This document shows, in pieces, positions 8,682 through 63,047 of a stretch of DNA of 64,000 bases. The DNA comes from Aureispira sp. CCB-QB1 (lineage in GTDB: Bacteria; Bacteroidota; Bacteroidia; Chitinophagales; Saprospiraceae): assembly GCA_945870185.1 (NCBI GenBank), contig CAMBRK010000011.1:1-64000 (forward strand), given 5' to 3'. Numbering within the stretch: the stretch's first letter is position 1; every line of letters starts with the position of its first letter. Position numbers and translations under genes: made by a program. The notes under the pieces are model-generated. The model was not told the DNA's origin, did not search any database, and worked only from the letters and a program-made list of their open reading frames with translations.

Positions 8682-8823
8682 TTCCTTTGACTTGTAAAAT
8701 AAAGTAACAAATATAGTTGTATTTTTTATATAGATATTTTTTTTACAATATTTTAATGCAATGCTTTAAATATTATAGCGCCATTTATAGACTATACTTA
8801 ATATCTTCTATCTATTACAAAAA

Positions 8824-9254: not shown

Positions 9255-9314
9255 ATGCAAGGTCTGCTGCCCGCTACATCCACGCTTGCGCCTTTCAGGC
9301 GTTCCACCTTGCAT
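9255..9314 (+). promoter_or_regulatory. Structured leader upstream of gene A (E1)
   Basis: ATGCAAGG (9255-9262) pairs with CCTTGCAT (9307-9314). The equivalent place in E2 has GTGTATGG/CCATACAC (57159-57166 and 57183-57190): different bases, pairing kept. GTAGCTACGGG (E1) or TTAGCTACGGG (E2) precedes the stem in both, and ACGCTG follows it. Confidence 0.45.
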
Positions 9315-9402
9315 GAAATCATCCCCTTACGCTGAATTTGCACCTGTTAGTGTGGCTGAGATGGCCGCACGCATTTTATTTCATTTTCATATACATTTTA
9401 TC

Positions 9403-9711
9403 ATGACTACTACAGTACATGCTTTTCCATTTGGCCAGCTCTATCAGACCAGTCGTATGTTTGACGCAGCTTGCGAGCATCGCCCATTTGCCAGGTTCAT
9501 CCGTAGGTGCATTTTTCGTCATCTCAGGGGAGATTGGGGAGATTGCTGCCATGAGGATAGAGACCGTAATGATATCGCGCTCCAGGGCGGTGATAGGCTC
9601 TTTTCAGTTTATGAGATTCCACATGGCCTCTTCGCTTTGGAGAGTAAGATTTGGATTATCACAGAGGCAGATCGGTCATATACCACTGTCCTTTTCCCAT
9701 CTGAGTATTGA
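9403..9711 (+). CDS. Gene A (E1): small DWGD/IWIITE family protein
   Basis: This 102-aa protein starts at MTTTVHAFPFGQLY; the start is set by alignment with the E2 copy at 57282. Conserved features are an N-terminal segment (F..A.EH.PF..F), a central HLRGDWGDCCHED, and a C-terminal SKIWIITEADRSYTTVLFPSEY. Small plasmid and element proteins with this DWGD/IWIITEADRS pattern are common and are often misannotated as type I restriction subunit M; I know of no demonstrated function. It is followed by a terminator (9722-9747) and then gene B. The long leader suggests RNA-level regulation. Cytosolic, with no membrane segment. Confidence 0.75.
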   Translation: MTTTVHAFPFGQLYQTSRMFDAACEHRPFARFIRRCIFRHLRGDWGDCCHEDRDRNDIALQGGDRLFSVYEIPHGLFALESKIWIITEADRSYTTVLFPSEY

Positions 9712-9721
9712 GCTCAGTTTC

Positions 9722-9751
9722 AGCCCTGTCATTCTTTTGGCAGGGCTTTTC
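9722..9751 (+). terminator. Intrinsic terminator after gene A (E1)
   Basis: AGCCCTG (9722-9728) pairs with CAGGGCT (9741-9747) and is followed by TTTT. Confidence 0.65.
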
Positions 9752-9803
9752 ACATTCATCTTTTTCACATTTTTCATTCATTCACACATTTACACATTCA
9801 CTT

Positions 9804-10130
9804 ATGAGACACAGACATCCACTTCCAGAGCTTCCTTTTGATCTTGGTTCCATAGTATTTTCACCAGGTATCATAGCCCATTTACCACACACTCCAGATA
9901 TGAGAGCTTATTTAGATCGCGTATTGGAGTGGCACGCTGCTACAGATTTTGGCATCATTTCCAGATCCACTCGTTTTGATAATGTACTCGCTGCTTTATT
10001 AGGGGCTGGCAAGCTTACTTCGCGATATTTGGTACCACGTGCATTATGTCCAGAGCAGTCCGGAGTCATCATTACCACGCATTTGGATATCAGCACTACC
10101 ACTATTCGCTTCGCGGGTGAGCAGGAGTAG
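9804..10130 (+). CDS. Gene B (E1): small element protein of unknown function
   Basis: This 108-aa protein starts at MRHRHPLPELPFDLG, matching the E2 homologue at 57684. Both share a LPEL.F.LG.IVFSP start, the block WHAATDFGIISR (CHAATDFGIISR in E2), a segment RFDNV.AAL, and a C-terminal ITTHLD..TTTIRFA.EQ. It may be a distant relative of gene A, since both keep the order 'position statement / residence segment / TTHL or IWIITE strand', but this is weak. It is cytosolic by composition. It always follows gene A, with a terminator between, so the pair is co-inherited rather than an operon with free read-through. Confidence 0.75.
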   Translation: MRHRHPLPELPFDLGSIVFSPGIIAHLPHTPDMRAYLDRVLEWHAATDFGIISRSTRFDNVLAALLGAGKLTSRYLVPRALCPEQSGVIITTHLDISTTTIRFAGEQE

Positions 10131-10549: not shown

Positions 10550-11761
10550 ATGAATCATTTTTTCAACATTGCAATTTTGATTTTTACTACTATAACAGGT
10601 TATGCCCAAACTTCGGGTGACTATTTTGTTTCTTTAGGGAAAACAAGATCTAATAAAGATGAAATTGAATATCTCATGACATGCTTTTTGAATGGAAATA
10701 CAAAATATGAGTATTCAACACTAAATGGGTATATGCATGGAATTCAAAAAGAATATTATACTTCTGGTAAAGTAAAATCATTTAAATTGTATCAAAAAGG
10801 CAATTCAACTTTAATAGATACAAGTTGGTTTGAAAGTGGAATTATTAGTAGCATTATTTCAATAGAAAATGATGGTATTTGGAAGAAAGAATTTTATGAA
10901 TCTAAAGCATTAAAATCCAAAGCCTTAATCAATAATAATGGAAAAAGAATAGGAGAAGATATTCGATATCATGAAAACGGACAGATTAGTTACCAATGCC
11001 TTTATGATAAGAATGGATTGTCTATAGGAAACACATTTTCATATTCTGAAGATGGTTCATTTCGAAGTGTAGGTGAGTACATAAAAGGTGAATTTCATTT
11101 ATGGCAAATGTGGGATAGTACTGGCATGCAACAGGTTATTGACGGTACAGGCAGTGATTTTTTTCATACTTCTGAAGGTTATATTTATGAATTAAAGTAT
11201 AGAAATGGGGTGACAAATGGAGATCAAAAGATTTATAAAGATGGAAAATTAATCTCTTTGTTTAATCAAGAAAATGGAAAAGCTCATGGACCATCTTATG
11301 AATATTATTCAAATGGCAGACTTAAGTCTATAACTCATTTTCAAGATGGTAATATTGTTAAAAAAGAAGACAATTTTCCGATGTTCGATAATCCTATTCT
11401 TGAAACTGACATAACTGTGTTGATACCGCCAAGAATCAATGAGTATAACAATTTGATTAAAACTGAAAATGTGCCTAAGCTAATTAATCGTGAAGCAGTC
11501 CAAATGTTTCTAAACTCAAATCTATTAGAGTATATAAATAGTCCTCACGATTTTATTGTCACATCATTTTATGACATTAAACTTAATAAGGAAGGAGAAA
11601 TATTTGAATCAAACGTATCAGAAAGTGAAGATTCACCATTTCTAAAAGTAGTTTTAAAAAGTTTTAAGTTAATGAAATTTGATCTCCAAAATCAATCTTT
11701 TGAAGGAGCGGATAATCAGATAAAACTTAGATTTGATATCAAGTTTACAGAAAAGAAATAG
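10550..11761 (+). CDS. Secreted MORN/YwqK-repeat protein
   Basis: This 403-aa protein starts MNHFFNIAILIFTTITGYAQ, a signal peptide. The middle (about residues 55-270) carries repeats of the MORN variant seen in YwqK-type proteins: KEYYTSGKVKSFKLYQKG, RYHENGQISYQCLYDKNG, KIYKDGKLISLF and YEYYSNGRLKSITHFQDG. The C-terminal 110 aa (EAVQMFLNSNLLEY, then FYDIKLNKEGEI) resembles a TonB-C-like fold used by periplasmic proteins of Bacteroidota. YwqK proteins are often annotated as antitoxins, but there is no partner here and the protein is exported, so I do not adopt that. It lies in E1 at a place where E2 has nothing, between gene B and the lysis-like operon. Confidence 0.75.
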   Translation: MNHFFNIAILIFTTITGYAQTSGDYFVSLGKTRSNKDEIEYLMTCFLNGNTKYEYSTLNGYMHGIQKEYYTSGKVKSFKLYQKGNSTLIDTSWFESGIISSIISIENDGIWKKEFYESKALKSKALINNNGKRIGEDIRYHENGQISYQCLYDKNGLSIGNTFSYSEDGSFRSVGEYIKGEFHLWQMWDSTGMQQVIDGTGSDFFHTSEGYIYELKYRNGVTNGDQKIYKDGKLISLFNQENGKAHGPSYEYYSNGRLKSITHFQDGNIVKKEDNFPMFDNPILETDITVLIPPRINEYNNLIKTENVPKLINREAVQMFLNSNLLEYINSPHDFIVTSFYDIKLNKEGEIFESNVSESEDSPFLKVVLKSFKLMKFDLQNQSFEGADNQIKLRFDIKFTEKK

Positions 11762-11820: not shown

Positions 11821-11853
11821 ACAAAAAAAGGCCCCGAACCAGCGTCCGGAGCC
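11821..11853 (-). terminator. Terminator of the E1 minus-strand membrane-protein operon
   Basis: On the minus strand GGCTCCG pairs with CGGGGCC (11830-11853), followed by a U-tract (AAAAAAA on the plus strand, 11823-11829). The same hairpin ends the homologous E2 operon at 58134-58157. Confidence 0.75.
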
Positions 11854-11877
11854 TAACCCATGCAAACAACCAAAACT

Positions 11878-12132
11878 CTAAATCTTCCCTTCGGGATGGT
11901 TGGGGTGCGCCTTTTCACTCCCTTCAGAAGATTGCGCCTTTTCCCTCCCTTTGGGAGGGTTAGGGAGGGCCCAATGCAACCCCTTCGACACCCCAAAACT
12001 CACAATCGCACCCACACAAGCTAATATGCCCGTTTTGATGATATCATTGCCATCTACGATGCCAATGAATGCGATCAAGGTACCACCGAGCGTTCCCACC
12101 GCCTGATCACTATGATGAATTCCCATCCCCAT
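11878..12132 (-). CDS. Small holin-like membrane protein (E1)
   Basis: This protein of about 84 aa starts MGMGIHHSDQ. I chose this ATG because it is the first one conserved with the E2 copy and lies after a strong AAAGGAGGAGG site. One or two hydrophobic segments (TLGGTLIAFIGIV, then IIKTGILACVGAIVSFGVSKGL) are followed by a charged tail rich in K, E and P. It overlaps the upstream small membrane gene by 23 bp, exactly as in E2. Size, topology and position after a peptidase-like gene are those of a holin or spanin-type partner, but this is inference. The last 30 codons differ from E2 and carry imperfect repeats. Confidence 0.65.
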   Translation of the reverse strand: MGMGIHHSDQAVGTLGGTLIAFIGIVDGNDIIKTGILACVGAIVSFGVSKGLHWALPNPPKGREKAQSSEGSEKAHPNHPEGKI

Positions 12133-12373
12133 CATGACCTCCTCCTTTGGTTTCGCCGATGGCATCATCAGCGATGTTAGTAATCTGACTTACAGCCGTG
12201 GCCACACCACCTGCAGTAACCAAGTATCCACCGATTGTCACCACTGTTGCAGGTAGCGACACTGGAGCCGTAAGCAACACCGTCCCTACACCTGCCAGCA
12301 CCAATCCCACATTCCGCAACACCTTAAAAAACTTAGGCGTTGGGGCCTTTATCCTATCTACAATCTTACTCAT
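12110..12373 (-). CDS. Small membrane protein (E1), 87 aa
   Basis: The protein starts MSKIVDRIKAPTPKFFKVLRN and has a hydrophobic hairpin, with segments VGLVLAGVGTVLLTAPVSLP and VVTIGGYLVTAGGVATAVSQI, then a glycine-rich acidic tail. It overlaps the DUF5675 stop by 4 bp (translational coupling). The E2 copy at 58447-58713 is very similar. Two adjacent small proteins with short transmembrane segments next to a cell-wall enzyme suggest a lysis-cassette arrangement, not proven. Confidence 0.7.
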   Translation of the reverse strand: MSKIVDRIKAPTPKFFKVLRNVGLVLAGVGTVLLTAPVSLPATVVTIGGYLVTAGGVATAVSQITNIADDAIGETKGGGHDGDGNSS

Positions 12374-12768
12374 AATACTTTTTTGATGATTTTAATAAAA
12401 TGACTTTTCTCTCCACTCCTCTTCAAATTCTCGATGATATACCCAAGCGCCAGCTTTGAATACTGACCCTTCCCATTCCCACCCGAAGAAAACACCGGAG
12501 CTATACAGCCCCGGAGTTCCTTCCGAGCATCATTGGCCACATGCATCAGGATGCCAGATCTCCCCTTCACATTATCTATCCTCAGGCACTCCACAAATTT
12601 CGGATGTTGAATGATGGCCACTGGATAAACTCCTTCCGGCACACACGACACATTTCGCTCATTATTGGCCCATCCCAATTCAATACTCCGACAGAGAAAG
12701 ATGCCCTGGATAAAAATCATCCCATCTGTCCAGCCATCCCGATACAACCTTTGAAGCTCTAACATCAT
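12370..12768 (-). CDS. DUF5675-family protein, peptidase/endolysin-like (E1)
   Basis: This 132-aa protein carries the DUF5675 signature: RSIELGWANNERNVSCVPEGVYPV near the N-terminus, then RSGILMHVANDARKELRGCIAP. From memory, relatives in crAss-like phages are described as L,D-carboxypeptidase/transpeptidase-like; the H and C in these two blocks (MHVAN, LRGCIAP) would fit a Cys/His active site. It is soluble. It lies in a four-gene minus-strand operon (250-aa protein, this gene, two membrane proteins) shared by both elements. Likely role: cell-wall cleavage in release or transfer of the element, by inference. Confidence 0.75.
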   Translation of the reverse strand: MMLELQRLYRDGWTDGMIFIQGIFLCRSIELGWANNERNVSCVPEGVYPVAIIQHPKFVECLRIDNVKGRSGILMHVANDARKELRGCIAPVFSSGGNGKGQYSKLALGYIIENLKRSGEKSHFIKIIKKVL

Positions 12769-12828
12769 CTTAAATTCTTTAACTCAACCTTAATCTCAGT
12801 CTCGATAATCTTAATCTCAACCTTAATC

Positions 12829-13581
12829 TTAAATCACCTCAATCACCGCCAAGGAATTATACCCACCATTCTTGAGAGAATACTGATTACCATTCACTTC
12901 TTGGTAAAACTCAATTTGAAGCGTGAACACATTAAGACCGGTACCCAAGGTAGGTGTAGCTGCCTGAGTCAATGCCACATTACTGGCTGTGCTATTGATC
13001 GGCAGATTTACCTCATTACTCATTACAGTCTCAAACTCTCCAGTGGCAAAATCCACTTTCGACCATCCAGCTTTAAACGTCACATGCGTCGATCCAGGTG
13101 CAGACACCAAATCCAGCTTAGGTACCAAGCCAGTGATGTTTACCGCTCCAGTAGTAGTGTTCAAAGCATACGCTTTAAACAAGATACTACTCAAGATCGC
13201 CCGATTATTGAAGTTGAAACCTTTCAATACCGCCTTCCCTTCAGGAAGGTCAAAGCCCTCATGCACATGTCTCTCACCACGCTCATTGGCCGCATCCAAA
13301 TTTTTGACATCGGTCATCAATTGGGTGAGCCTGGACACCACGCGGTTGTCACTCGCATTCATCATGAAATTCCGCAAAGCTGTTCTCAACAGCTTTCCTG
13401 CACCAGCCGACATTCCAAATTCAGCTCCATTCTCCCGAGTCCTTTGGAATGTAGGATCATTGGCGATCCTGTCCGCAGAAACTCCTCCCTTGGTCCTTAC
13501 CAAGAAACCATCAGCACTTTTGTAAAATGATAGGTCATCAAGCTTTCCCACCACTTTCAACAATCCACCTTGTCTTGCCAT
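12829..13581 (-). CDS. 250-aa element protein with conserved N-terminal motif (E1)
   Basis: The protein starts MARQGGLLKVVGKLDDLSFY and continues with a motif containing RIANDPTFQRTREN and GAGKLLRTALRN. The N-terminal 100 aa are basic and strongly conserved with the E2 copy. The C-terminal half is beta-rich and more variable, ending LKNGGYNSLAVIEVI. Similar proteins are frequent and unnamed in Bacteroidota genomes. It has no signal peptide or membrane segment. It heads the operon that includes the DUF5675 and membrane proteins, so it may be a structural or cell-surface component of the same process. Function is not known. Confidence 0.75.
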   Translation of the reverse strand: MARQGGLLKVVGKLDDLSFYKSADGFLVRTKGGVSADRIANDPTFQRTRENGAEFGMSAGAGKLLRTALRNFMMNASDNRVVSRLTQLMTDVKNLDAANERGERHVHEGFDLPEGKAVLKGFNFNNRAILSSILFKAYALNTTTGAVNITGLVPKLDLVSAPGSTHVTFKAGWSKVDFATGEFETVMSNEVNLPINSTASNVALTQAATPTLGTGLNVFTLQIEFYQEVNGNQYSLKNGGYNSLAVIEVI

Positions 13582-13941
13582 AACTACATCATTTTTATAT
13601 GTGAAATAATGACAATATTACGCTCATTTCACCTGCTTTGTTATAGTTTTTGAAGTGCCTGTGTAATAAAAGACAATAAATGATCATTTTTAACATATAT
13701 TTGCATACCAAAAGGGGCTAGATTTTCGTCATAAGTTTTTACTTTTGTCATATCAAATGGTAGCCACTTACAGACATTACTTTTTGACTATACGCTGAAT
13801 TCTATTTGCTAGAAAAACTTCCAAACACCCAAATTATTTTTTTGTGCCCCATCAGCTTTAGATAGTGTATGGATGATGTATGGATGGTGTATGGATAGTA
13901 TATGAAGAGTGTATCAACAATTATGTTAAATAGAAGTCAAA
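13582..13941. other. Divergent control region between 250-aa and 65-aa genes (E1)
   Basis: No gene seen. It contains a TATATTTG -7-like element on the plus strand (13696-13703) and the phased 11-bp tandem repeats at 13861-13915. The equivalent E2 region is 59904-60322. Confidence 0.5.
13861..13915 (+). repeat. Phased 11-bp tandem repeats (E1)
   Basis: There are five 11-bp units: GATAGTGTATG, GATGATGTATG, GATGGTGTATG, GATAGTATATG, AAGAGTGTATC. They lie 27 bp before the 65-aa gene. E2 has the same type of array at 60231-60296. A period of 11 bp puts each unit on the same DNA face. Confidence 0.75.
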
Positions 13942-14139
13942 ATGAGTAAATTTTCAAGAGTAGTTATTTATCCAAAAGATGTCTCTGCCATCACCGGCAA
14001 GAACTACCGTTCTTCCTGGCTACTGCTTACCAAAATAAAAAAACATCTGAATAAGGACGTCCATCAGGTAGTCACTGTCCAGGAGTTCTGTGAGTACATG
14101 GGGATAGGGGAGGATGCATTGACTAATCTACTAGCCTAA
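13942..14139 (+). CDS. Small 65-aa DNA-binding-like protein (E1)
   Basis: The protein starts MSKFSRVVIYPKDVSAITGK and has a helical pattern ending FCEYMGIGEDALTNLLA. Proteins of this size and pattern (YP.DV..ITGK..R...LL..IK, then EFCEY) recur next to integrases and RteC-like genes in Bacteroidota and are usually unnamed. The shape suggests a small helix-turn-helix or excisionase-like factor. It sits directly behind the phased 11-bp repeats, its likely binding sites or those of a regulator. Its stop overlaps the convergent RteC-like stop by 4 bp. Confidence 0.7.
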   Translation: MSKFSRVVIYPKDVSAITGKNYRSSWLLLTKIKKHLNKDVHQVVTVQEFCEYMGIGEDALTNLLA

Positions 14140-14921
14140 GTTTTTTTTGTAATCTTTCTTTGGTAATCCTTTTCAATAAGATCGTCTCTCTTTTGCTCAA
14201 TCTTTGTTTTCATTTTATTTGAATACTTTGCAGTTTCTTTTCTAATATACAATTCATGAGTTGAGCCGTGAATGTCTTTGATCTCCACATTGAAAAACTT
14301 ACTGATATGATTTGAGATTTCTTCAAGTGACATTTCACCATTATTGATCACATTAGTTAACTTAAGACCATTTATTAATTCACTAAGTTCAGCTATTGAT
14401 CCAGTCCATTTAATTTTCGGATAGGATGCTATAATTTCTTCCACAGAATCCGGATCATCAGCCTTTAACAGATATTTTTCTATCATTTCTAGTGCCTTAA
14501 TGAGCGCAAAGATATGATTATCTTTTGATTCTTTTCTAAATAACGTCTCATCTCTTAGGTTTCCCTTTGATCTAAAATAAATGATGTCATCTTTGATCAA
14601 TATACAATCATCTTTCAATTGTTTTAGTAGCCTGGAATAATACTTTCTATCTCCTGGTATTTTCTCCAATTCAAAATTATAAACGCGCTCATAATAAATC
14701 CCTAGATGCTGAAAAGTAGGCTTATCTATCTTGTAGTATTGGATTTCATCTTGAAGTGATTTAAACTGGTGTTCACCTTCAGCCCTTGTTAATTCACCAC
14801 TTAATGCCACATACGTATCCAGACGTTCCTTTAATTCTTCTCTATTGAATACCATATTGAAGTGGTCAGGGTATTTGCCCAAAAATTGATTTAGAATGAT
14901 ACATAATTTTTTGGATAGCAT
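14136..14921 (-). CDS. RteC-like protein (E1)
   Basis: This 261-aa protein shows the RteC family pattern: EIQYYKIDKPTFQHLGIYYE in the first third, ALIKALEMIEKYL in the middle, and KWTGSIAELSELINGL followed by INNGEMSLEEI near residues 170-215. RteC controls excision of CTnDOT-type elements by activating excision genes; here it is next to the integrase and is likely the element's excision regulator. The N-terminal half is coiled and charged. The E2 homologue (60552-61316) is clearly related but more diverged than the integrases. Confidence 0.75.
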   Translation of the reverse strand: MLSKKLCIILNQFLGKYPDHFNMVFNREELKERLDTYVALSGELTRAEGEHQFKSLQDEIQYYKIDKPTFQHLGIYYERVYNFELEKIPGDRKYYSRLLKQLKDDCILIKDDIIYFRSKGNLRDETLFRKESKDNHIFALIKALEMIEKYLLKADDPDSVEEIIASYPKIKWTGSIAELSELINGLKLTNVINNGEMSLEEISNHISKFFNVEIKDIHGSTHELYIRKETAKYSNKMKTKIEQKRDDLIEKDYQRKITKKT

Positions 14922-15108: not shown

Positions 15109-16359
15109 CTACTTTGCTTTTCTCAAAGTATCATCTTTCTTAGCAGCCAATTTATCGCTTAACATGTCCATTTCATCACCAACCCTTGACTCCACTATTT
15201 TGCCATATATCTGAGTCGTTTTAATACTGCTATGTCCAAGCATCTTACTAGTGGCTTCCATACTCACACCATTGGCCAGCAACACTGTAGTTGCAAATGT
15301 ATGTCTAGCAATGTGTGTGGTTAGTGGTTTTTTAATTTCACATATATCGGCAATCTCCTTTAAGTAGGAATTAAGCTTTTGATTGCTTTTCATGGGCAGT
15401 AATTTATTTCCCTTGACACAAGCTGGATGATCTTGATATTTCTCCAGGATATCCAATGCTATGTCCAATAGAGGTACATTGGCTACATTTTCAGTTTTTT
15501 GTCTTACTGTGTAGATCCACTTTTTACCATTGATTCCAGTTCCAATATGTTCAGGAGTAAGCATTGCGGCATCTTTATAAGCGTATCCTGTATGGCAGCA
15601 AAATACAAAAATGTCTCTCACCTCGATGAGCCTATCAATAGTAAATTCTTTAGTCATAATTCGATCAAGCTCAGCTGCAGTCAAATATTCCCTTTTGGCT
15701 TCCTTAACGGGACACTTATATCCTTGAAATACATTTTTCTCAACCCACTCATTATTTACAGCAAAATCCATAATTCGCTTCACATATTTGAGATATTTTG
15801 ACATAGTATTTTGTTGGATTTTAACTTCAGTTTTAATATAGAACTCATACTCCACCATAAAAGAATACTTCAGCTGATTCAAATAGATATCGTCAGTTTT
15901 ATACTTTAACTTAATAAAGTCAGCTATTCTATTTCTGAAGGCATGGTATCTCCCCCAGGTTATTTTGCCTATTTCGATGCCAATTAATTTTTCAGCATTC
16001 GAATTAAAGATGTCACAAACTTCGAGAAGTTTTTTCCTGGTATCAACTTCTTTTGCAGTAAGCTTGTTTTTTAACATGTCAACTGTGATATCAGAATCCT
16101 TGATTTTGTAATCATTATAAATTCTGAGCGTATCTAGCTTAATTTTTTCTAGGTATTCATTAAGTGAATTTGCCATTGCAGAATTCCCTTTGACTCTACC
16201 TAATTGCTCATCCCAGTTTTTTAATTCTACCGTTTGGTCGGTAGAAATTCTAACTCTCTTCCCTTCGAGAAATAATTGCAAATAAATAGGAGCATGTCCA
16301 TTTTGTGCTCTGTCCTTTCGGACCATAAAGGTTACTTTTAAAAAATCTAATTTTTTCAT
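15109..16359 (-). CDS. int: Tyrosine recombinase/integrase (E1)
   Basis: This 416-aa site-specific recombinase has an N-terminal arm-binding domain (about 1-60: MKKLDFLKVTFMVRKDRAQN, then IYLQLFLEGKRVRIS), a SAM-like core-binding domain (about 110-205) and a catalytic domain (about 225-400). Visible catalytic residues are H349 and R352 in THIARHTF, H376 in MLGH, and nucleophile Y385 in TTQIYGKI. The usual first arginine is replaced (HTGYAYKD, A260), as also in E2; IntDOT of CTnDOT likewise lacks this arginine, so activity is plausible. It lies beside the att core at 16649 and probably inserts the element into the tRNA-Arg 3' end. Confidence 0.9.
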   Translation of the reverse strand: MKKLDFLKVTFMVRKDRAQNGHAPIYLQLFLEGKRVRISTDQTVELKNWDEQLGRVKGNSAMANSLNEYLEKIKLDTLRIYNDYKIKDSDITVDMLKNKLTAKEVDTRKKLLEVCDIFNSNAEKLIGIEIGKITWGRYHAFRNRIADFIKLKYKTDDIYLNQLKYSFMVEYEFYIKTEVKIQQNTMSKYLKYVKRIMDFAVNNEWVEKNVFQGYKCPVKEAKREYLTAAELDRIMTKEFTIDRLIEVRDIFVFCCHTGYAYKDAAMLTPEHIGTGINGKKWIYTVRQKTENVANVPLLDIALDILEKYQDHPACVKGNKLLPMKSNQKLNSYLKEIADICEIKKPLTTHIARHTFATTVLLANGVSMEATSKMLGHSSIKTTQIYGKIVESRVGDEMDMLSDKLAAKKDDTLRKAK

Positions 16360-16648: not shown

Positions 16649-16663
16649 GTGATCCCGACAGGA
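16649..16663. repeat. att core, E1/E2 junction
   Basis: The 15-bp sequence GTGATCCCGACAGGA is identical to the 3' end of the tRNA-Arg gene at 63033-63047. The rest of the tRNA is absent here, as expected at the non-tRNA end of an element integrated at a tRNA 3' end. A terminator-like hairpin lies just left of it, as at the tRNA copy. Confidence 0.8.
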
Positions 16664-53025: not shown

Positions 53026-53868
53026 ATGGACGAATTAATAGAAGATGTTAGAAAATTATTACAAAATGATTTTCAAATGCACTTATTTGATGCAGCAATA
53101 GATAACTTAAATGCATCAGAAAATAAACTATGTTATAATAATTTTGCATATAGTATGAGAGAATTGTCAAGACATATTCTTAAAGATCTATCACCTGATG
53201 ATAAGGTTTTAAATAGTTCTTGGTATACAAACGAAATTCCTGATAATGAAAATGGAATAACAAGAGCTCAAAGAATCAAATTTGCTATTCAAGGTGGATT
53301 ATCAAATGAATACATAAAAGATAAACTTAACATCGCTGACCAAATAAATTTAAAGAAGAAAAATCTTGTAGATCAAATAAGTAAACTCAGCAAATATACT
53401 CACATAAATGAAGAAAGCTTTGGTATCAATGAATCAAGTGTAAAGGAGAAGTCTATTGAAAACTTGAAAGCATTTAAGGAATTTGCATTTATGATTGATG
53501 AGACCAGAAATGAATTGATGAGAAAACTGGAAGATATTACAAACAATAAATTGGTTAGTGAAGTCATATTTAATGTTTATTCAGAAATTGACATACTTGC
53601 ACCAAAGCATCATATTGAAAATCTAATAGCGACAAAATCAAGTATAACTTGCATTACAGACAAAAGTGTTGAAGTCAATTCACAAGGAAATGTATTCGTT
53701 GTGCTTGAATACGGTAATAAGGAAGAAAGATCAAATAATGATGGTCTTGATATGTGTTTGGAATTTCCATTTATGAGTAACCTTGCTTTTATAATAAATG
53801 ATAGATTTCCGAATGGTTCCAATGAAGTTCAGACCTTTGATGTTGATACATCTTCTTGGTATGAGTAA
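53026..53868 (+). CDS. HEPN-like protein (pEK499_p136-type) preceding the Gabija genes
   Basis: The 280-aa protein starts MDELIEDVRKLLQNDFQMHL. Residues 40-60 read FAYSMRELSRHILKDLSPDD and contain R45-x4-H50, an Rx4H HEPN motif. The next block, SWYTNEIPDNENGITRAQRI, then KFAIQGGLS, agrees with what I recall of the pEK499_p136 HEPN family. The C-terminus is beta-rich and unknown. It ends 40 bp before gajA-like and is on the same strand, so it is probably an extra member of that operon, perhaps an RNase effector or regulator. Family assignment is from memory. Confidence 0.65.
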   Translation: MDELIEDVRKLLQNDFQMHLFDAAIDNLNASENKLCYNNFAYSMRELSRHILKDLSPDDKVLNSSWYTNEIPDNENGITRAQRIKFAIQGGLSNEYIKDKLNIADQINLKKKNLVDQISKLSKYTHINEESFGINESSVKEKSIENLKAFKEFAFMIDETRNELMRKLEDITNNKLVSEVIFNVYSEIDILAPKHHIENLIATKSSITCITDKSVEVNSQGNVFVVLEYGNKEERSNNDGLDMCLEFPFMSNLAFIINDRFPNGSNEVQTFDVDTSSWYE

Positions 53869-53908
53869 AAAAGCAAGTGGCTAACAAACAATATAACATA
53901 AATTGACA

Positions 53909-55471
53909 ATGAATTTTATAACCAAGCTCAAACTTAAAAACTTTAAACGCTTCGACTCATTTGCCGTTGACTTTGATGACAATATAAATATCCTTGTTGG
54001 CGACAATGAATCGGGAAAATCGAGTTTAATAGAAGCAATTAGCCTTGTTTTAAGCGGTAGTAGAAGCAAAGTGGAAACAACGGGCTTAGAAAATATTTTT
54101 AACTCGAAAGCAGTAAGTGATTTTTTAGCTTCCGATAAAAATTATGAAAATCTCCCGAATGTGTTTATCGAAGTTTATTTCAACGAACAACATAACATTG
54201 AACTTTCTGGAAAAAACAATTCAGATAAAATTGTTTGTGATGGACTTAAGCTCGAAATTGTTCCAAATGATGATTTTGGTAAAGACATTAAATCAATACT
54301 TTCTCAAAGTGAGCCAGTATTCCCTTATGAATTCTATAGCATTAAATTTTCAACTTTTTCAGGTGAAGCATATTCGAGCTACAAAAAGTATTTAAGACAT
54401 ATCCTTGTTGACAATAGCCAGATAAGCAGCGAGTATGCGATAAAAGAATATGTAAAAGATATGTATAATTCTTATGCAGATCCTTTAGAAAAAAGTATAC
54501 ACCAAAATGAATACAGAAAGCACAAAGAAAATTTTAAAAATGTTGTTTTAACAGGACTAAATTCTAAAGTCCCAGACTACGATTTTTCAATAAGAAATAA
54601 CTCGAAAGCAAATTTAGAAACGGATTTAACTCTTACGGAAGGAAGTATAAGTATTGAAAATAAGGGTAAAGGAATTCAATGCTTTATAAAAACCAAATTC
54701 GCTCTAAGTAAAGCAGAAGAAAATTTGGATGTAGTGTTAATTGAAGAGCCAGAAAACCATCTTAGTCATATAAATATGAAAAAATTGATTAAGGAAATTG
54801 AAGGGTCAGAAAAGAAGCAGATTATCATTTCTACTCATAGTAATATGATAAGTAGTAGGCTTAATCTAAGAAACTCAATTCTTCTTAATAGCAATAGCAA
54901 TGTTCCTGTTCATTTAAAAGGTGTCGATGAAGAAACAGCAAAATTTTTCATTAAGGCTCCTGACAACAATATCCTTGAATTTGTTCTTTCCAAAAAAGTG
55001 ATACTTGTTGAAGGAGATGCTGAATTCTTATTAATGGAATCATTTTTCAGAGCAATTGCTTCAATGGATTTTGAGCAATCAGATATCCATATAATTTCCG
55101 TTGACGGAACAAGTTTTAAACGATATTTAGAAATTGCCAAGGTATTAAATATAAAAACCGCAATAATTAGAGACAACGACGGGGACTATCAAGCAAACTG
55201 TGTAAATAATTATTCAGACTATAGTAGTTTTGATTTCATCAGGGTTTTCTCCGAAACAGACCCTGCAATTTATACTTTTGAAATTTCTGTTTATCACAAT
55301 AATACAAAGATATGCGATGGCTTATTCTCGCCGGGGAGAAAAACACTGACGCCATTACAGTATATGCTTAAAAACAAAGCGGAAGTAGCTTTTCAACTCC
55401 TTGACAAAAAGTCAAATGAATTAGTAGTTCCTACCTACATTAAAAAAGCAATTGAATGGATAAGAGAGTGA
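53909..55471 (+). CDS. gajA: OLD-family ATPase-nuclease (GajA-like)
   Basis: This 520-aa protein starts MNFITKLKLKNFKRFDSFAV; an in-frame TTG two codons earlier is less likely. The ABC-type ATPase has Walker A GDNESGKS (31-38), Walker B VVLIEEPENHLSHIN and a switch histidine in IIISTHSNM. A Toprim nuclease domain follows with VILVEGDAEFLLME and AIIRDNDGDYQAN. This is the class 2 OLD arrangement, always paired with a UvrD-like helicase, known as the Gabija defence system. It is shorter than the usual 570-580 aa. GajA nicks DNA when nucleotide levels drop. The stop overlaps the helicase gene by 16 bp. Confidence 0.85.
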   Translation: MNFITKLKLKNFKRFDSFAVDFDDNINILVGDNESGKSSLIEAISLVLSGSRSKVETTGLENIFNSKAVSDFLASDKNYENLPNVFIEVYFNEQHNIELSGKNNSDKIVCDGLKLEIVPNDDFGKDIKSILSQSEPVFPYEFYSIKFSTFSGEAYSSYKKYLRHILVDNSQISSEYAIKEYVKDMYNSYADPLEKSIHQNEYRKHKENFKNVVLTGLNSKVPDYDFSIRNNSKANLETDLTLTEGSISIENKGKGIQCFIKTKFALSKAEENLDVVLIEEPENHLSHINMKKLIKEIEGSEKKQIIISTHSNMISSRLNLRNSILLNSNSNVPVHLKGVDEETAKFFIKAPDNNILEFVLSKKVILVEGDAEFLLMESFFRAIASMDFEQSDIHIISVDGTSFKRYLEIAKVLNIKTAIIRDNDGDYQANCVNNYSDYSSFDFIRVFSETDPAIYTFEISVYHNNTKICDGLFSPGRKTLTPLQYMLKNKAEVAFQLLDKKSNELVVPTYIKKAIEWIRE

Positions 55472-56475
55472 TTTTTGCTGTTGCAGGATCGGGTAAGACA
55501 ACTTTTCTAATCAATCAGTTAAATAAAACTGAAAGGTTTTTACTTGTTACATACACTAACAATAACGTTCATAATTTAAGATCAGGCATCATAAAAAAAT
55601 TTGGCTACTTCCCAAGTAACATTAAGCTATACTCCTTTTACTCTTTTCTTTATGGCATTTGCTACAAGCCGTTTTTACACGACAAACTGAAAACCAAAGG
55701 CATAAACTATGATACGACACCTTCTCGCTTCTTACACCGCAACAAAAGAGAATATTACATTGACAAATTCAACAGACTATATAGTGCAAGAATTTCCAAA
55801 ATCCTTTTTGCAACTGACGAACAAGGCAATGTAGTTGAAAGAATATCAAAGTATTTCGACCATTTGTTTATTGATGAAATCCAAGATTTTGGGGGTAACG
55901 ATTTCAATTTGCTGAAGGAAATTAGCAAGGCAAAAGTAAACCACATTTATGTTGGGGATTTTTTTCAGCACACTTTTGACACCAGTAGAGACGGAAATAC
56001 TAATTCAAAACTTCATGATGATTTAGAGAAATATATTGGAGAATTTCATAAAATGGGGGTTGTCCCTGACACTAAAACATTATCAAAAAGCTTTCGTTGT
56101 AGCCCCAATATTTGCAAATTCATATCGGAAAGCTTAGCAATTTCTATAGAATCTCATAGAGAAGATGAAACAGCAGTTGAATATATTGACACCATAGATA
56201 AAGCAAGACAAATATTTAATGACAATTCAATTGTGAAGCTCTTTTATAAAGAACATTACAAATACGATTGTTTTTCAAGAAATTGGGGTGACAGTAAAGG
56301 AGAAGACAAATACTTTAACGTTTGTGTGGTTTTAAATAAATCAACTTTTGACAAATACAGCAAAGGAAAGCTGCACGAATTACCGCCGACAACATTGAAC
56401 AAATTGTATGTTGCACTATCAAGAGCAAAGAATAACTTATATCTAATTCCCTTTAATTTAATAGATACGGTCTAA
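55456..56475 (+). CDS. gajB: UvrD-like helicase (GajB-like, short)
   Basis: The 339-aa protein has the SF1 motifs: Walker A FAVAGSGKTTFL near the start, DExx-like LFIDEIQDFGG, the motif III GDFFQHTFDTSRDG, motif IV-like LSKSFRCSPNI, and motif VI LYVALSRAKNNLYL. A standard GajB is about 490 aa; here the 2A/2B parts appear reduced, so unwinding may be weak. It may act mainly as a sensor of DNA ends that activates GajA. It overlaps gajA by 16 bp. Confidence 0.8.
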   Translation: MDKRVIFAVAGSGKTTFLINQLNKTERFLLVTYTNNNVHNLRSGIIKKFGYFPSNIKLYSFYSFLYGICYKPFLHDKLKTKGINYDTTPSRFLHRNKREYYIDKFNRLYSARISKILFATDEQGNVVERISKYFDHLFIDEIQDFGGNDFNLLKEISKAKVNHIYVGDFFQHTFDTSRDGNTNSKLHDDLEKYIGEFHKMGVVPDTKTLSKSFRCSPNICKFISESLAISIESHREDETAVEYIDTIDKARQIFNDNSIVKLFYKEHYKYDCFSRNWGDSKGEDKYFNVCVVLNKSTFDKYSKGKLHELPPTTLNKLYVALSRAKNNLYLIPFNLIDTV

Positions 56476-57599: not shown

Positions 57600-57613
57600 T
57601 CCATCATCATTAG

Positions 57614-57647: not shown

Positions 57648-57683
57648 CACCTATTTTTATTTCACCTATTTAATTTTATACGT

Positions 57684-58123: not shown

Positions 58124-58157
58124 AACGAAAAAAGGCCCCGAACCAGCGTCCGGAGCC
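58124..58157 (-). terminator. Terminator of the E2 minus-strand membrane-protein operon
   Basis: This is the same hairpin as at 11830-11853: on the minus strand GGCTCCG pairs with CGGGGCC (58134-58157), followed by a U-tract. Confidence 0.75.
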
Positions 58158-58187
58158 CAACCCATGCAAAACAAATCAAACTAAAAC

Positions 58188-58469
58188 TCAATCTCCATCC
58201 AGTTCGTCAGAGCGTCCGCGCTCTGATGCAGTATCTCCAGGTTTCTTGCCTGAATCTTTACCGCTCTTTTCCTTTTTGAAAGGAAACTCTACATTCCCGG
58301 GAAATATCTTATGTAATCCCTTCGACACACCAAAACTAACCATCGCTCCCACACATGCCAGGATACCAGTCTTGATGATATCACTGCCATCTACGATGCC
58401 GATGAAAGCGATCAAGGTACCACCGAGCGTTCCCATCGCCTGATCACTATGGTGAATTCCCATCCCCAT
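58188..58469 (-). CDS. Small holin-like membrane protein (E2)
   Basis: This protein of about 93 aa starts MGMGIHHSDQAMGTLGGTLI; this ATG follows AAGGAAGGAGG and is conserved with E1. Hydrophobic segments TLGGTLIAFIGIV and IIKTGILACVGAMVSFG are followed by a long charged tail (KKEKSGKDSGKKPGDTASER). It overlaps the preceding gene by 23 bp. The tail differs from the E1 copy although the membrane part is nearly identical, the usual pattern of holins and spanins. Confidence 0.65.
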   Translation of the reverse strand: MGMGIHHSDQAMGTLGGTLIAFIGIVDGSDIIKTGILACVGAMVSFGVSKGLHKIFPGNVEFPFKKEKSGKDSGKKPGDTASERGRSDELDGD

Positions 58470-58713
58470 TAGACCCTCCTTCCTTTTTTTCGCCGATGGC
58501 ATCATCACTTATATTGGTGATCTGACTCACAGCTGTGACCACACCACCAGCTGTCACTAGGTATCCACCAATAGTCACCACAGCTGCTGGAAGCGATACA
58601 GGTGCCGTCAGCAATACAGTACCCACACCAGCCATGATCAACCCGATATTTCGCAACACCTTAAAAAATTTAGGCGTTGGTGCCTTCGCCCTATCTATGA
58701 TTTCACTCATCAC
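58447..58713 (-). CDS. Small membrane protein (E2), 88 aa
   Basis: It starts MMSEIIDRAKAPTPKFFKVL and carries two hydrophobic segments (IGLIMAGVGTVLLTAPVSLP and VVTIGGYLVTAGGVVTAVSQI) and a glycine/glutamate tail. It is nearly identical to E1 12110-12373, starts by a 4-bp overlap with the DUF5675 stop, and belongs to the lysis-like operon. Confidence 0.7.
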   Translation of the reverse strand: MMSEIIDRAKAPTPKFFKVLRNIGLIMAGVGTVLLTAPVSLPAAVVTIGGYLVTAGGVVTAVSQITNISDDAIGEKKEGGSNGDGNSP

Positions 58714-59105
58714 TTTTTACTTTTAATGTCAATAAAATGTTCCTTCTCATCACTCATCATCAAATTCTCGATGATATACCCAAGTGCCAGTCTAGAATGC
58801 TGACCCTTTCCATTCCCACCCGAAGAAAACACCGGAGCTACACAGCCCCGGAGTTCCTTTCGAGCATCATTGGCCACATGCATCAGGATGCCAGATCTCC
58901 CCTTCACTTTATCTATCCGCAAGCACTCCCCAAATTTTGGATGTTGAATGATGGCTACTGGATAAACTCCTTCCGGCACACACGATATATTTCGCTCATT
59001 ATTGGCCCATCCCAATTCAATACTCCGACACAGCAAGATACCTTTGATCAGAATCTCCCCATCTGTCCAGCCATCCCGATACAACCTTTGAAGCTCAATT
59101 ACCAT
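58710..59105 (-). CDS. DUF5675-family protein, peptidase/endolysin-like (E2)
   Basis: The 131-aa protein has RSIELGWANNERNISCVPEG and RSGILMHVANDARKELRGCV like the E1 copy, ending LALGYIIENLMM. The conserved His and Cys would suit a Cys/His peptidoglycan enzyme. It is the second gene of the operon. The two elements keep this gene very similar although their cargoes differ, so it appears to be under selection for the element's own life cycle. Confidence 0.75.
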   Translation of the reverse strand: MVIELQRLYRDGWTDGEILIKGILLCRSIELGWANNERNISCVPEGVYPVAIIQHPKFGECLRIDKVKGRSGILMHVANDARKELRGCVAPVFSSGGNGKGQHSRLALGYIIENLMMSDEKEHFIDIKSKK

Positions 59106-59150: not shown

Positions 59151-59903
59151 TTAAACCACCTCAATCACTGCCAATGAATTATACCCACCATTCTTGAGAG
59201 AATACTGTGTACCATTCACCTCTTGATAAAACTCAATCTGAAGCGTGAACACATGGATACCAGTCGCCAAAGCTGGCGGAGCTGCATGTGTCAGATTGAT
59301 GTCCACAGACGTGTTGTTGATAGGGATGTTCACAGAGTTGCTGATCAGCGTCTCGAACTCTCCCATCTGGAAATCCATCTTTGACCATCCAGCCTTGAAT
59401 GTCACATGTGTAGATCCTGGAGCCTTAACCAAGTCCATCATTGGTACCACACCAAGGATGTCCAGTGCGCCTGTAGTGGTGTTCAAAGCAAAAGTTTTGA
59501 ACAAAATACCACTCAAAATCGCGCGATTGTTGAAGTTGAATCCCTTCAGCACAGCTTTACCTTCAGGAAGGTCAAAGCCCTCATGGACATGTCTTTCACC
59601 TCGGTCATTGGCCGCATCCAGATTTTTCACATCCGTCATCAATCTTGTCAATCTCGAAACCACCCGGTTGTCACTGGCGGTCATCATCAGATTTCTTAAT
59701 GCTGTTCTCAACAGCTTCCCTGCACTCGCTGACATTCCGAATTCAGCGCCATTCTCCCTCGTTCGCTGAAACGTCGGATCATTCGCGATCCTGTCTCCAG
59801 AGACTCCACCTTTGGTCCTTACCAAAAAACCATCGGCACTTTTGTAAAAGGATAGGTCATCAAGCTTTCCCACCACCTTCAATAATCCACCTTGTTTAGC
59901 CAT
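59151..59903 (-). CDS. 250-aa element protein with conserved N-terminal motif (E2)
   Basis: The start MAKQGGLLKVVGKLDDLSFY is placed by comparison with the E1 gene; a longer upstream frame exists but is not conserved. It contains RIANDPTFQRTREN and ASAGKLLRTALRN, a middle block ERHVHEGFDLPEGKAVLKG, and ends LKNGGYNSLAVIEVV. The N-terminus is nearly identical to the E1 copy while the beta-rich residues 160-215 vary. This mosaic variation resembles a phage tail or surface-interacting protein, but I cannot name it. Confidence 0.75.
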   Translation of the reverse strand: MAKQGGLLKVVGKLDDLSFYKSADGFLVRTKGGVSGDRIANDPTFQRTRENGAEFGMSASAGKLLRTALRNLMMTASDNRVVSRLTRLMTDVKNLDAANDRGERHVHEGFDLPEGKAVLKGFNFNNRAILSGILFKTFALNTTTGALDILGVVPMMDLVKAPGSTHVTFKAGWSKMDFQMGEFETLISNSVNIPINNTSVDINLTHAAPPALATGIHVFTLQIEFYQEVNGTQYSLKNGGYNSLAVIEVV

Positions 59904-60322
59904 AATGCCACAATTTAAAAAGTTAAATAATACGACAAAGATATTGGCGTATTTCCCACTTTGCGCCACATTCAATACTCACACTATCATAAATTACAAT
60001 AATTTACATATATTATCAAACAATAACATATATCTTTAACCGTTTTTTAACATCATTTTCCCACAAACAACTTACTTTTGTTCAGTAATTAAAATTCAAA
60101 CCACTTACACAAAGTGTTTTTACCAGCATCTGAGATTTAAATACTCGAGAAATTACCCCCACCCACGACAAACCCTCATAGCAATAAAATCATCTACACC
60201 ATCCGGACGGTTTGTCGAGACATCCCCGCCGATAGTGTATGGATGATATATAGATAGTGTATGGATAGTGTATGGATAGTGTATGACAATAGTATCATCA
60301 ATTTTGGCAAATAGAATGTAGC
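59904..60322. other. Divergent control region (E2)
   Basis: No gene. It contains the phased 11-bp repeats (60231-60296) just before the 65-aa gene and A+T-rich DNA with probable promoters for the 250-aa gene. Confidence 0.5.
60231..60296 (+). repeat. Phased 11-bp tandem repeats (E2)
   Basis: There are six 11-bp units, four of them exactly GATAGTGTATG (60231, 60253, 60264 and 60275), the others degenerate. They lie 27 bp before the 65-aa gene, the same distance as the E1 array. Confidence 0.75.
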
Positions 60323-60520
60323 ATGAGCAAATTTTCAAGACTGATTATTTATCCCAAAGATGTCTCCGCCATCACTGGCAAGAACTACCGGACTTCTTGG
60401 CTATTATTAAATAAGATCAAAACCTACTATGGCAAGAAAGATCATCAACCTGTAACGGTATTAGAATTTTGTGAATACATGGGTTTGAAAGTAGAAGATG
60501 TAATTTCAGTCATGAATTAG
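60323..60520 (+). CDS. Small 65-aa DNA-binding-like protein (E2)
   Basis: The protein starts MSKFSRLIIYPKDVSAITGK, with SWLLLNKIKTYYGKKDHQPV and EFCEYMGLKVEDVISVMN. It is clearly the counterpart of the E1 gene at 13942. The phased repeats upstream and the neighbouring RteC-like and integrase genes suggest a role in control of excision or copy number. It is small, basic and without membrane segments. Confidence 0.7.
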   Translation: MSKFSRLIIYPKDVSAITGKNYRTSWLLLNKIKTYYGKKDHQPVTVLEFCEYMGLKVEDVISVMN

Positions 60521-61496: not shown

Positions 61497-62756
61497 TTAT
61501 TGTGCCTTTTTTGAGTCTTCATTCTTTGGAGAAAAAAGTTTCTCACTCAGTTGGTCCATCTCAGCTCCAACTCTACTTTCTACAATCTTACCATAAATCT
61601 GTGTGGTCTTTATGCTTTTGTGCCCTAGCATTTTGCTTGTAGCTTCGAGACTAACACCATTTGTCAATAGAACAGTAGTCGCAAATGTATGCCTGGCAAT
61701 GTGCGTGGTAAGTGGTTTTGTAATGCCACATATATCTGCCAATTCTTTAAGGTAAGTATTTAGCCTTTGATTGCTTTTCATTGGTAGAAGGCGATTCTTA
61801 CTCACACATACAGGATGCTCTTTGTACTTTTCTATAATGTTTAGTGCTGGTTGTAGTAGAGGAACATTACTTACATTATCATTTTTCTGTCTGGAAGTAT
61901 ATATCCATTTCTTACCGTTGATGCCAGTAACTAAATGATCAGAACATAGAAGTGAAGTATCTTTGTAGGCATATCCTGTATAACAACAGAAGACAAAACA
62001 ATCTCGCACCTCACTCAATCTAGGAATAGTAATTTCCTTTTCAACAATTCGCTGCAACTCTTCAGCGGTGAGATATTCCTTTTTTGTCTCTTTAGTATGC
62101 GCCTTATAAGATGACAATACATTTTTGACTAAGTAATCATATTTTACACCATAATCAAGTACTCGACTTAGATATTGCATAAACTTGACCAGTGTATTTT
62201 GATGAAGCTTTACTATAGATTTTAGGTATATCTCATATTCCATTGCAAAAGAATATTTGATCTGATCGATCTGGATATCTGATACTTGGTATTTGTACAC
62301 AAGAAAATCTAGAATCCTTCCCTTATACAATTTATAGCGATTGAAAGTAATCTTTCCAATCTCAATTCCCACAAGGCCTTCATATTGCTGATTATGAAGC
62401 TCACATAATTCAGAAATGGTGATCGTATGTTTTTTTGAGACTTCATCGTTACCCATTAAACGATTACGAATTTCATCAACAGTAATATCTTCCTGGTTGG
62501 CCTTCATAGTATGGAATATTTGTAGTACATCCATTTTCATAGTATCCAAATGGAGATTGATGGTGCTAACCTTTTTGGAGCTTCCTTTTACCCTTCCGAA
62601 ATTGGAATCCCATTCGTCATAATTTACTTTGTGGCCAGTTCCGATGTAAGCGCGCCGACCTGACAGGTACAATTGCATCATCACAGGTGATGATCCTGTA
62701 TTCTTTTTATCCGATCGAAGGATAAAACTTACCTTAAGAATTTCTAACTTTTTCAT
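61497..62756 (-). CDS. int: Tyrosine recombinase/integrase (E2)
   Basis: This 419-aa integrase is homologous to the E1 enzyme throughout: N-terminal arm-binding domain (MKKLEILKVSFILRSDKKNT), core-binding domain around residues 115-205, and catalytic domain with THIARHTFATT, MLGHKSIKTTQIYGKI (His and nucleophile Tyr). The first catalytic arginine is again replaced (YTGYAYKD). It lies 277 bp from the tRNA-Arg 3' end and its att core. The similarity to the E1 integrase, together with the common att site, explains how the two elements stacked in one tRNA gene. It probably both inserts and excises E2. Confidence 0.92.
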   Translation of the reverse strand: MKKLEILKVSFILRSDKKNTGSSPVMMQLYLSGRRAYIGTGHKVNYDEWDSNFGRVKGSSKKVSTINLHLDTMKMDVLQIFHTMKANQEDITVDEIRNRLMGNDEVSKKHTITISELCELHNQQYEGLVGIEIGKITFNRYKLYKGRILDFLVYKYQVSDIQIDQIKYSFAMEYEIYLKSIVKLHQNTLVKFMQYLSRVLDYGVKYDYLVKNVLSSYKAHTKETKKEYLTAEELQRIVEKEITIPRLSEVRDCFVFCCYTGYAYKDTSLLCSDHLVTGINGKKWIYTSRQKNDNVSNVPLLQPALNIIEKYKEHPVCVSKNRLLPMKSNQRLNTYLKELADICGITKPLTTHIARHTFATTVLLTNGVSLEATSKMLGHKSIKTTQIYGKIVESRVGAEMDQLSEKLFSPKNEDSKKAQ

Positions 62757-63032: not shown

Positions 63033-63047
63033 GTGATCCCGACAGGA
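63033..63047. repeat. att core within tRNA-Arg 3' end
   Basis: This copy of the 15-bp core covers the last 14 nt of the tRNA-Arg gene (minus strand) and one flanking base, so the tRNA remains intact after integration. It is the right boundary of E2. Confidence 0.8.

Follow-up and report, generated by a model that had tools for sequence, protein, structure and literature searches.

A probable phage-derived lysis operon on small mobile elements of Bacteroidota

Layout of the operon in two elements

The window analysed here is a stretch of 64,000 nucleotides of Aureispira sp. CCB-QB1 (GCA_945870185.1, CAMBRK010000011.1, positions 1 to 64,000), which belongs to contig C11; the genome as a whole measures 4.9 Mb. 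It contains two elements, E1 and E2, and in each of them the genes c0, c2, c3 and c5 and a terminator-like hairpin follow one another on the minus strand according to the open reading frame (ORF) calls. An earlier note on this DNA had described a lysis-cassette-like operon conserved in both elements, and all four genes were indeed found in this order in either copy. In total, the genome harbors five c0 and four DUF5675 genes. The features of the two copies are:

E1
12829..13581, minus strand: c0, lead protein of 250 amino acids (ORF; AlphaFold2 (AF2) model)
12370..12768, minus strand: c2, DUF5675 protein of 132 amino acids (PF18925, 4.3e-20; phrog_1501, 5e-13; predicted YkuD-type fold)
12110..12373, minus strand: c3, small membrane protein of 87 amino acids (ORF; hydropathy; viral relatives)
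11878..12168, minus strand: c5, small membrane protein of 96 amino acids (ORF; hydropathy; viral relatives)
11829..11854, minus strand: terminator-like hairpin 3′ of c5 (within repeat D8)
13942..14139, plus strand: c1, divergent gene of 65 amino acids, putative DNA-binding regulator (conserved beside c0)
13861..13915, no strand: 11-bp iterons upstream of c1 (repeat analysis)

E2
59151..59903, minus strand: c0, 85% identical to that of E1
58710..59105, minus strand: c2 (DUF5675)
58447..58713, minus strand: c3
58188..58508, minus strand: c5 (a start at 58469 gives a 23-bp overlap)
58133..58158, minus strand: terminator-like hairpin
60323..60520, plus strand: c1
60231..60290, no strand: 11-bp iterons upstream of c1

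Identical overlaps had been reported for the two copies. For c2 and c3 this is correct (4 bp in E1 and E2 alike), while for c3 and c5 the reported 23 bp apply to both copies only if c5 begins at an internal ATG (12132 and 58469), the longest c5 ORFs giving overlaps of 59 bp (E1) and 62 bp (E2). The terminator is shared as described. The hairpin 3′ of c5 consists of 11 pairs and a T run (11854-11829 and 58158-58133) and sits in both elements within a 49-nt repeat of 96% identity. By simple hydropathy analysis, one or two hydrophobic segments were detected in c3 and c5 and none in c0 and c2.

The module also takes in the divergent gene c1, which is located 361 bp (E1) and 420 bp (E2) from c0, and its 11-bp iterons. 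In 31 loci, the iteron score at lag 11 was 19.26, compared to 13.68 ± 0.39 in shuffled sequences; other lags from 7 to 16 scored 12.8 to 14.5, and 15 of the 31 loci individually reached p ≤ 0.05 at lag 11. In at least 32 of 36 loci, c1 and c0 are divergently oriented, and a c0 gene is no more than 5 kb away for 27 of 30 c1 matches. Binding of c1 to the iterons is predicted.

Phage relatives of the enzyme and membrane genes

The c2 product belongs to DUF5675, since its match with PF18925 (72.1 bits) is well above the curated cut-off of 26.7. Its AF2 model has a predicted local distance difference test score (pLDDT) of 94.3. Foldseek revealed no significant match for this model. In VIA-align, the best 19 rows were all enzymes of the L,D-transpeptidase fold, among them Pgp2, DpaA, YkuD, Csd6, Tlde1a and LdtMt, with Z scores of 7.0-10.5 (15 above 8), 94-113 aligned residues and root-mean-square deviations of 2.3-3.3; the row after these chains reached a Z of only 2.3. 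It is predicted from the model that c2 has the YkuD L,D-transpeptidase fold. As read from the alignment, a His and, 11-12 residues on, a Gly-Cys pair are kept in 32 of 34 DUF5675 relatives. The conserved string is H-x(11)-C, the residue in front of Gly-Cys being other than His (for example R, K, L or N). The usual YkuD signature has a His directly before Gly-Cys (HGC). This signature is absent from the DUF5675 relatives and, due to its absence, c2 was not filed as a YkuD family member. Profile sequence searches of the PDB with c2, c0, c3 and c1 gave nothing meaningful, and c2 did not match any of the solved YkuD members.

DUF5675 is a large family in phages. In viral contigs, at least 579 relatives were detected among 600 candidate stretches, and phage records contained 198 relatives when a Flavobacterium-type member was used as query. 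In one small group of viral contigs, the DUF5675 gene is situated beside a conserved membrane-type protein and genes that by eye are terminase-like. In the open-licence literature, as far as its text is accessible, the family is named in two vibriophage papers at the level of listings. The notion that the YkuD fold is unknown among phage endolysins was dropped, because the accessible parts of three publications (PMC8310338, PMC13284279, PMC5017753) assign YkuD to a small number of lytic proteins of phages. In one of them, a catalogue of phage lytic proteins, YkuD is a rare catalytic type, and DUF5675 does not appear in the YkuD row of its accessible text (PMC8310338).

The c3 protein is characterized by the motif APTPKFFKxLRxIGL, and relatives of it were found in 37 viral contigs. 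A gene of a holin cluster is located directly upstream of the c3 relative in 32 of them and a member of an M15-endolysin cluster at most 3 kb downstream in 28. One holin-cluster member matches phrog_2359 (7.9e-13), and a c3-bearing viral contig encodes, by PHROGs, portal, protease, tail fibre, holin and endolysin. A search of 50,697 phage records with c3 yielded no match, though the viral contigs have relatives. One chromosomal c3 relative (L173) precedes a gene that is lysozyme-like by eye. Relatives of c5 were present in two viral contigs. The first (L190) contains an Amidase_2 gene following the c5 relative; in the second (L191), the c5 relative is followed by a small SPTP-type protein, which is c3-like by eye, not by profile. 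The likeness to a lysis cassette holds gene by gene, for c2 by its predicted YkuD-type fold and for c3 and c5 by relatives in phage lysis settings, and an origin of c2, c3 and c5 from phage lysis genes is supported.

The lead protein c0 and the spread of the module

According to its AF2 model (pLDDT 91.8), c0 comprises a less confidently modelled hairpin region at the N terminus, helices up to approximately residue 120 and an Ig-like sandwich. No convincing match of c0 was detected in Pfam, PHROG or NCBIfam, and Foldseek gave no match of the model at ≤0.001 in PDB or BFVD. The best Z in VIA-align was 4.4, Ig-like and fibronectin-like domains being among the rows. The structural search against phage tail and injection proteins that had been proposed for the 250-aa protein thus returned no significant match in PDB, BFVD and VIA-align. 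The possibility that c0 is a phage tail, capsid or injection protein was discarded on these grounds, which does not imply a new fold. No match of c0 was found in the 50,697 phage records, and the single sequence had no relative in the viral contigs. The c0 profile found one viral-contig relative, L272, which stems from a 51.7-kb contig; a 191-aa viral protein in L231 (1e-4 with the profile) was left out as its sequence looks like that of an unrelated phage protein.

The N-terminal ~35 residues of c0 align with DUF6266 (PF19781; profile comparison E value 5.7e-6 over 40 columns). The PF19781 model matched none of 63 c0 proteins at 0.05. In one genome (L308), c0 and DUF6266 genes stand in a row with c1. 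By eye, DUF6266 genes adjoin DUF6943-type genes in L185, L303 and L304, DUF6943 itself having been identified in L067, and a DUF6266 gene was once seen beside a c3-like gene (L188, 7e-5). Nothing on DUF6266 was found in the open-licence literature. A second c0 subfamily (L099, L081, L096, L111-L113 and L116) possesses a staphylococcal-nuclease-like gene upstream, which constitutes cluster c8 with 15 loci, one member being confirmed with Pfam. In L081, the genes following c0 look by eye like a diverged member of DUF5675 and a small XhlA-like protein.

Purifying selection on c0 is strong, the ratio of nonsynonymous to synonymous substitution rates (dN/dS) being 0.007-0.097 in 28 pairs and 0.074 between E1 and E2. 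The partners are under weaker constraint (dN/dS between E1 and E2 of 0.39 for c2, 0.12 for c3 and 0.39 for c5). Because of the conserved layout and the purifying selection, the operon is more than a chance arrangement. Residues 1-125 of c0 are 94% identical between E1 and E2, residues 126-250 only 75%. The dS values of the two halves are nearly equal (1.24 and 1.25) and dN of the C-terminal half is approximately five times that of the N-terminal half. Therefore, the halves are of the same age and under different constraint, and this comparison does not bear out the earlier description of c0 as a mosaic protein; a fast-evolving Ig-like half is the better explanation. Between c0 of E1 and the C12 copy, dS differs between the halves (0.77 and 0.25). 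For c2 of E1 and E2 (12370-12768 vs 58710-59105), a dS of 0.25 was determined, approximately one fifth of the value for c0 (1.24). Since the difference is so large, the sequences suggest an exchange of c2 between the copies, an alternative being constraint on its silent sites.

It is conceivable that the operon is dedicated to the export of c0 in a manner similar to type 10 secretion, the holin-like c3 and c5 together with c2 releasing c0 and the element being a mere vehicle. The position of c0 at the head of the operon, its lack of a hydrophobic segment and the approximately fivefold dN of its Ig-like half at equal dS, as expected of a surface-acting part, fit in with this idea, and the release of large proteins by holin and hydrolase is known from the accessible texts of two publications (PMC10847048; PMC12729407). 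On the other hand, no known protein is convincingly similar to c0, and in 7 of 66 loci, one of which is truncated by a contig end, c0 and c1 are present and no lysis gene was detected. We regard export of c0 as the purpose of the operon as rather unlikely.

All counts of spread include the source genome. Relatives of c0 were found in 15 of 199 genomes of the family and in 26 of 296 genomes of the phylum, with up to eight per genome; four relatives in Saprospiraceae records are 84-86% identical. The c3 gene occurs in 19 of 296 and c1 in 17 of 247 genomes. Around 66 c0 loci, c1 was detected 43 times, c2 36, c3 39, c5 29, DUF6943 16 and an integrase 13 times, and 26 of the loci have c1, c2, c3 and c5 together. 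Twenty extra loci of a single Flavobacterium-type genus (the label Flavobacterium is presumptive), selected on the basis of similar DNA, contain c1 (20), c2 (19), c3 (18), c5 (18), DUF6943 (16) and an integrase (5); 18 are complete. Thus, the lysis genes are frequent, not obligate partners of c0. The order of the operon is kept over several families. Among 72,556 plasmids, one carries the module, p1 of Marivirga sp. BKB1-2. The earlier note had named plasmids with an unrelated known role as an argument against a release function; this sole plasmid copy has no known role and looks degraded, with c0 in two ORFs, a shortened DUF5675 gene and an integrase in pieces.

Incomplete copies, copies with internal stops and the prevalence of loci without an integrase close by might indicate that the loci are remnants, i.e. 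decayed prophages or passengers which kept a lysis cassette by chance and were spread by neighbouring integrases. Such an origin is very improbable. It is disfavoured by a dN/dS of c0 that does not exceed 0.097 in any of the 28 pairs, by the order kept in 31 Flavobacterium-type loci as well as over several families, and by the divergent orientation of c1 described above.

Mobile setting, cargo and interpretation

An 11-kb stretch of the Flavobacterium-type locus L090 was compared with 81 genomes of the same genus. Matches were obtained in 47 of them, some just via a ~100-bp repeat outside the module; the c0 part matched in at least 29. The common block extends from about the c1 stop codon to a point ~4.46 kb further on. 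Matches to the flanks of L090 lie mostly on other contigs, and in G691 a 110-bp match just beyond the right end is on the same contig. The usual order in 31 loci is c1, c0, c2, c3, c5, zero to two genes on the opposite strand, DUF6943 and a tail, with parts missing in some. At the right end, 13 of these loci, including the query, share a stretch of 57-71 nt with 92-100% identity, after which the similarity ends. The pattern of this closing stretch occurs 18 times in 12 of the 81 genomes, the reversed control not at all. As a separate observation, the closing stretch (L090:13281-13355 and 12 other loci) contains repeated GAAC and CGA words. A function of the right-end tail as a phage packaging site was considered and rejected, there being no exact match in the viral contigs; nor did the tail reveal a consistent RNA fold (z -0.35, -2.90 and 0.89) or an Rfam family. 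The left end is not fixed, as there is no long conservation past c1, and an integrase is located there in 5 of 20 loci. A word similar to ACTwGTTCAAwTTTTAGT, seen by eye 60-120 nt past c1 in L063, L064, L067, L068 and L088, is possibly part of the left end.

Ten proteins encoded in the slot following c5 were scanned, and six matched nuclease, TIR, exonuclease, CoiA or defence-candidate models. The matches include a CAP12/Pycsar-type TIR (3.3e-6), HSDR_N (5.1e-6), CoiA_N (2.3e-9), a TIR (2.5e-5) beside DUF2971 (8.4e-12; PADLOC candidate, 2.3e-7) and a PADLOC exonuclease 'Effector' (2.7e-40). Three proteins had no match in either library, and that of L089 had none in PADLOC, the sole library used for it. 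By eye, the slot genes of L319 resemble a transposase pair. These defence-type genes in the cargo slot, together with an operon that faces one divergent conserved gene with iterons, would be compatible with abortive infection: once a phage had been sensed by c0 or c1, c2, c3 and c5 would lyse and kill the cell early, before the progeny mature, and lysis of this premature kind would be a straightforward means of ruining the burst. However, no PADLOC model matches c0 or c1, the two proteins of the module that were scanned, and c0 is not always accompanied by lysis genes, which makes this explanation unlikely.

In E1 and E2, the following features surround the operon:

E1
14136..14921, minus strand: RteC-family protein (PF09357, 2.9e-23)
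15109..16359, minus strand: tyrosine integrase (PF00589, 2.8e-13; phrog_1, 1.4e-39)
16649..16663: 15-nt attachment core, identical to a tRNA-Arg 3′ end
10550..11761, plus strand: MORN-repeat protein (PF07661, 1.1e-9) in the opposite-strand slot that follows the operon (putative E1 cargo)

E2
61497..62756, minus strand: tyrosine integrase
63033..63047: attachment core, located within tRNA-Arg (63032-63107, minus strand)
53026..56475, plus strand: defence genes beside E2 (Aga-type nuclease 53026-53868, GajA 53903-55471, GajB 55456-56475)

The defence genes beside E2 were identified with PADLOC (Aga-type nuclease 2.3e-66, GajA 4.3e-111, GajB 5.7e-53); the MORN-repeat protein in the slot of E1 had no PADLOC match. 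An RteC-type gene is present in E2, too, where it was assigned by gene cluster. The 15-nt core lies past the integrase. For E2 and L006 it is situated within an intact tRNA gene, for L008 within one that the end of the stretch truncates, and for E1 and the C12 copy it stands alone. No repeat of the core that would mark the far ends of E1 and E2 was found elsewhere within the window. Insertion into tRNA genes as a general rule was rejected, as any tRNA gene was found in just 9 of 60 loci scanned. Past the core of E1, excisionase-like and DnaC-like genes are indicated by the PHROG families listed, their assignment to ORFs being presumptive. For 30 proteins of both element regions, no head, tail or portal family is among 25 of the 26 PHROG families listed, several of which have no assigned function; the reported lack of capsid, tail and portal genes in E2 agrees with this. 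Contig C71 (L099) of the same genome shares both flanks of the Gabija genes (92.7% over 1.6 kb and 74.9% over 1.4 kb) and has other genes between them, so the Gabija slot is exchangeable. As the far ends were not found, a position of Gabija inside E2 is presumed from these common flanks only.

Several other features are located near the operons. Tandem genes of ~105-140 amino acids of the CDWGD...ITEADR...FPSEY type, which we take to be a plasmid-related family, accompany the Saprospiraceae-type copies (9286-10130 and 57282-58010; L099, L098 and L097) and have 26 members in 14 loci. A dispersed repeat of ~250 bp occurs near E1 and E2 at 1713-1958, 8814-9019 and 56690-56922, the first two copies being 88-94% identical. 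By eye, 7171-8592 encodes a group II intron-type reverse transcriptase. Eleven copies of a ~177-nt repeat (3093-5186) lie inside a 1196-aa ORF (2632-6222) with a signal-like N terminus.

On balance, we consider it probable that the operon is a phage-derived lysis or release module on small mobile elements of Bacteroidota without listed virion genes, often with exchangeable defence genes. This view is based on the gene order and its conservation, the purifying selection, the YkuD-type fold predicted for c2, the phage lysis-cassette setting of the c3 and c5 relatives, the presence of iterons, the type of cargo and the mobile setting. In such a module, c1 bound to the 11-bp iterons would keep the divergent operon silent until a cue is received, for which phage infection or excision are guesses. 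Subsequently, c3 and c5, coupled via their overlapping frames, might permeabilise the inner membrane as holin-like partners, whereupon c2, which has no hydrophobic export segment, could reach the peptidoglycan and cut its peptides. The cell would open and set free c0 plus whatever the element needs released. Regulation by c1 and lysis itself are presumed, and the purpose may lie in releasing a satellite, in altruistic suicide or in exporting c0.

Some observations weigh against such a module. Neither a packaging site nor a helper phage was identified, and no convincing holin profile was found for c3 and c5 (best phrog_2879, 0.035). The DUF5675 relatives L086 and L075 are devoid of the His...Gly-Cys motif, and cellular YkuD enzymes mostly build or edit cross-links, according to the accessible text of one publication (PMC12729407). 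The seven loci with c0 and c1 and without c2, c3 and c5 are L057, which ends at a contig end, L058, L059, L060, L073, L076, whose downstream region was not viewed, and L107; in 19 of the 66 loci, most of which carry a distant c0 gene, no c1, c2, c3 or c5 was detected at the thresholds used. These thresholds miss some partners, since the DUF5675-like gene of L081 was seen by eye alone. Finally, just 13 of the 66 loci and 5 of the 20 extra ones have an integrase close by, and the carrier is therefore not uniform.

Among the roles suggested in the earlier note, that of a satellite's release module gained from the integrases, the tRNA-Arg attachment core and the defence-type cargo, the satellite role itself being putative; nothing was found in favour of a contact-dependent device. 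More speculatively, the elements might represent widespread capsid-less Bacteroidota satellites equipped with their own regulated lysis cassette, an Ig-domain protein, c0, with a part in the capture or redirection of helper particles, an endolysin of the L,D-transpeptidase fold and a defence slot. We put this forward tentatively and lean against it. The Flavobacterium-type form of such a satellite would measure only about 4.5 kb. Should the favoured reading as a lysis or release module hold, Bacteroidota would have a new class of mobile elements that bring their own means of leaving the cell, and DUF5675, a large phage family, would be tied to cell-wall lysis via a YkuD-type fold, which few of the listed lytic proteins of phages possess. 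The compact cargo slot would be a place to seek new antiviral genes, and the satellite idea would become directly testable in culturable Flavobacterium. Titles and abstract starts of the open-licence papers listed contain no description of such a unit or of release, lysis or packaging by it.

The module resembles the lysis cassettes of Bacteroidota-type tailed phages in its c3 and c5 relatives and in the combination of small membrane genes with a peptidoglycan enzyme. By contrast, the enzyme is a DUF5675 protein instead of an M15 or amidase type, and the operon is headed by c0, faced by c1 and iterons and has no virion genes listed nearby. In type 10 secretion, folded proteins are released by holin and hydrolase (PMC10847048, accessible text), and an L,D-transpeptidase takes part in the release of typhoid toxin, as stated in the accessible text of PMC12729407. 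Putatively common to both are holin-like membrane genes, a peptidoglycan-type enzyme and a soluble protein in one operon; the module differs in its enzyme family, the mobile carrier, lysis genes that are optional for c0 and in having c0 as a candidate substrate. With the YkuD L,D-transpeptidases, c2 shares the predicted fold and the conserved His and Cys, but it has no sequence match to solved members and no HGC signature. The c0 protein has in common with DUF6266 the N-terminal ~35 residues and the occurrence beside DUF6943-type genes, and is separated from it by the missing Pfam model match. Satellites with defence hotspots are known (PMC9122126), and satellites are described as possessing an integrase and genes for regulation and replication, structural genes being absent (PMC13376191), both according to the accessible parts of these publications. 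The 25 PHROG families listed for both element regions name no satellite hallmark gene. An integrase at a putative tRNA attachment site, small size, variable defence genes and the lack of listed virion genes are traits which the elements would share with P4-like satellites, PICI and StCI. What separates the unit from these satellites is that an integrase is often missing and that it brings its own lysis-type operon; the difference from the known systems lies in the union of such an operon and c0 on mobile DNA for which no virion genes are listed.

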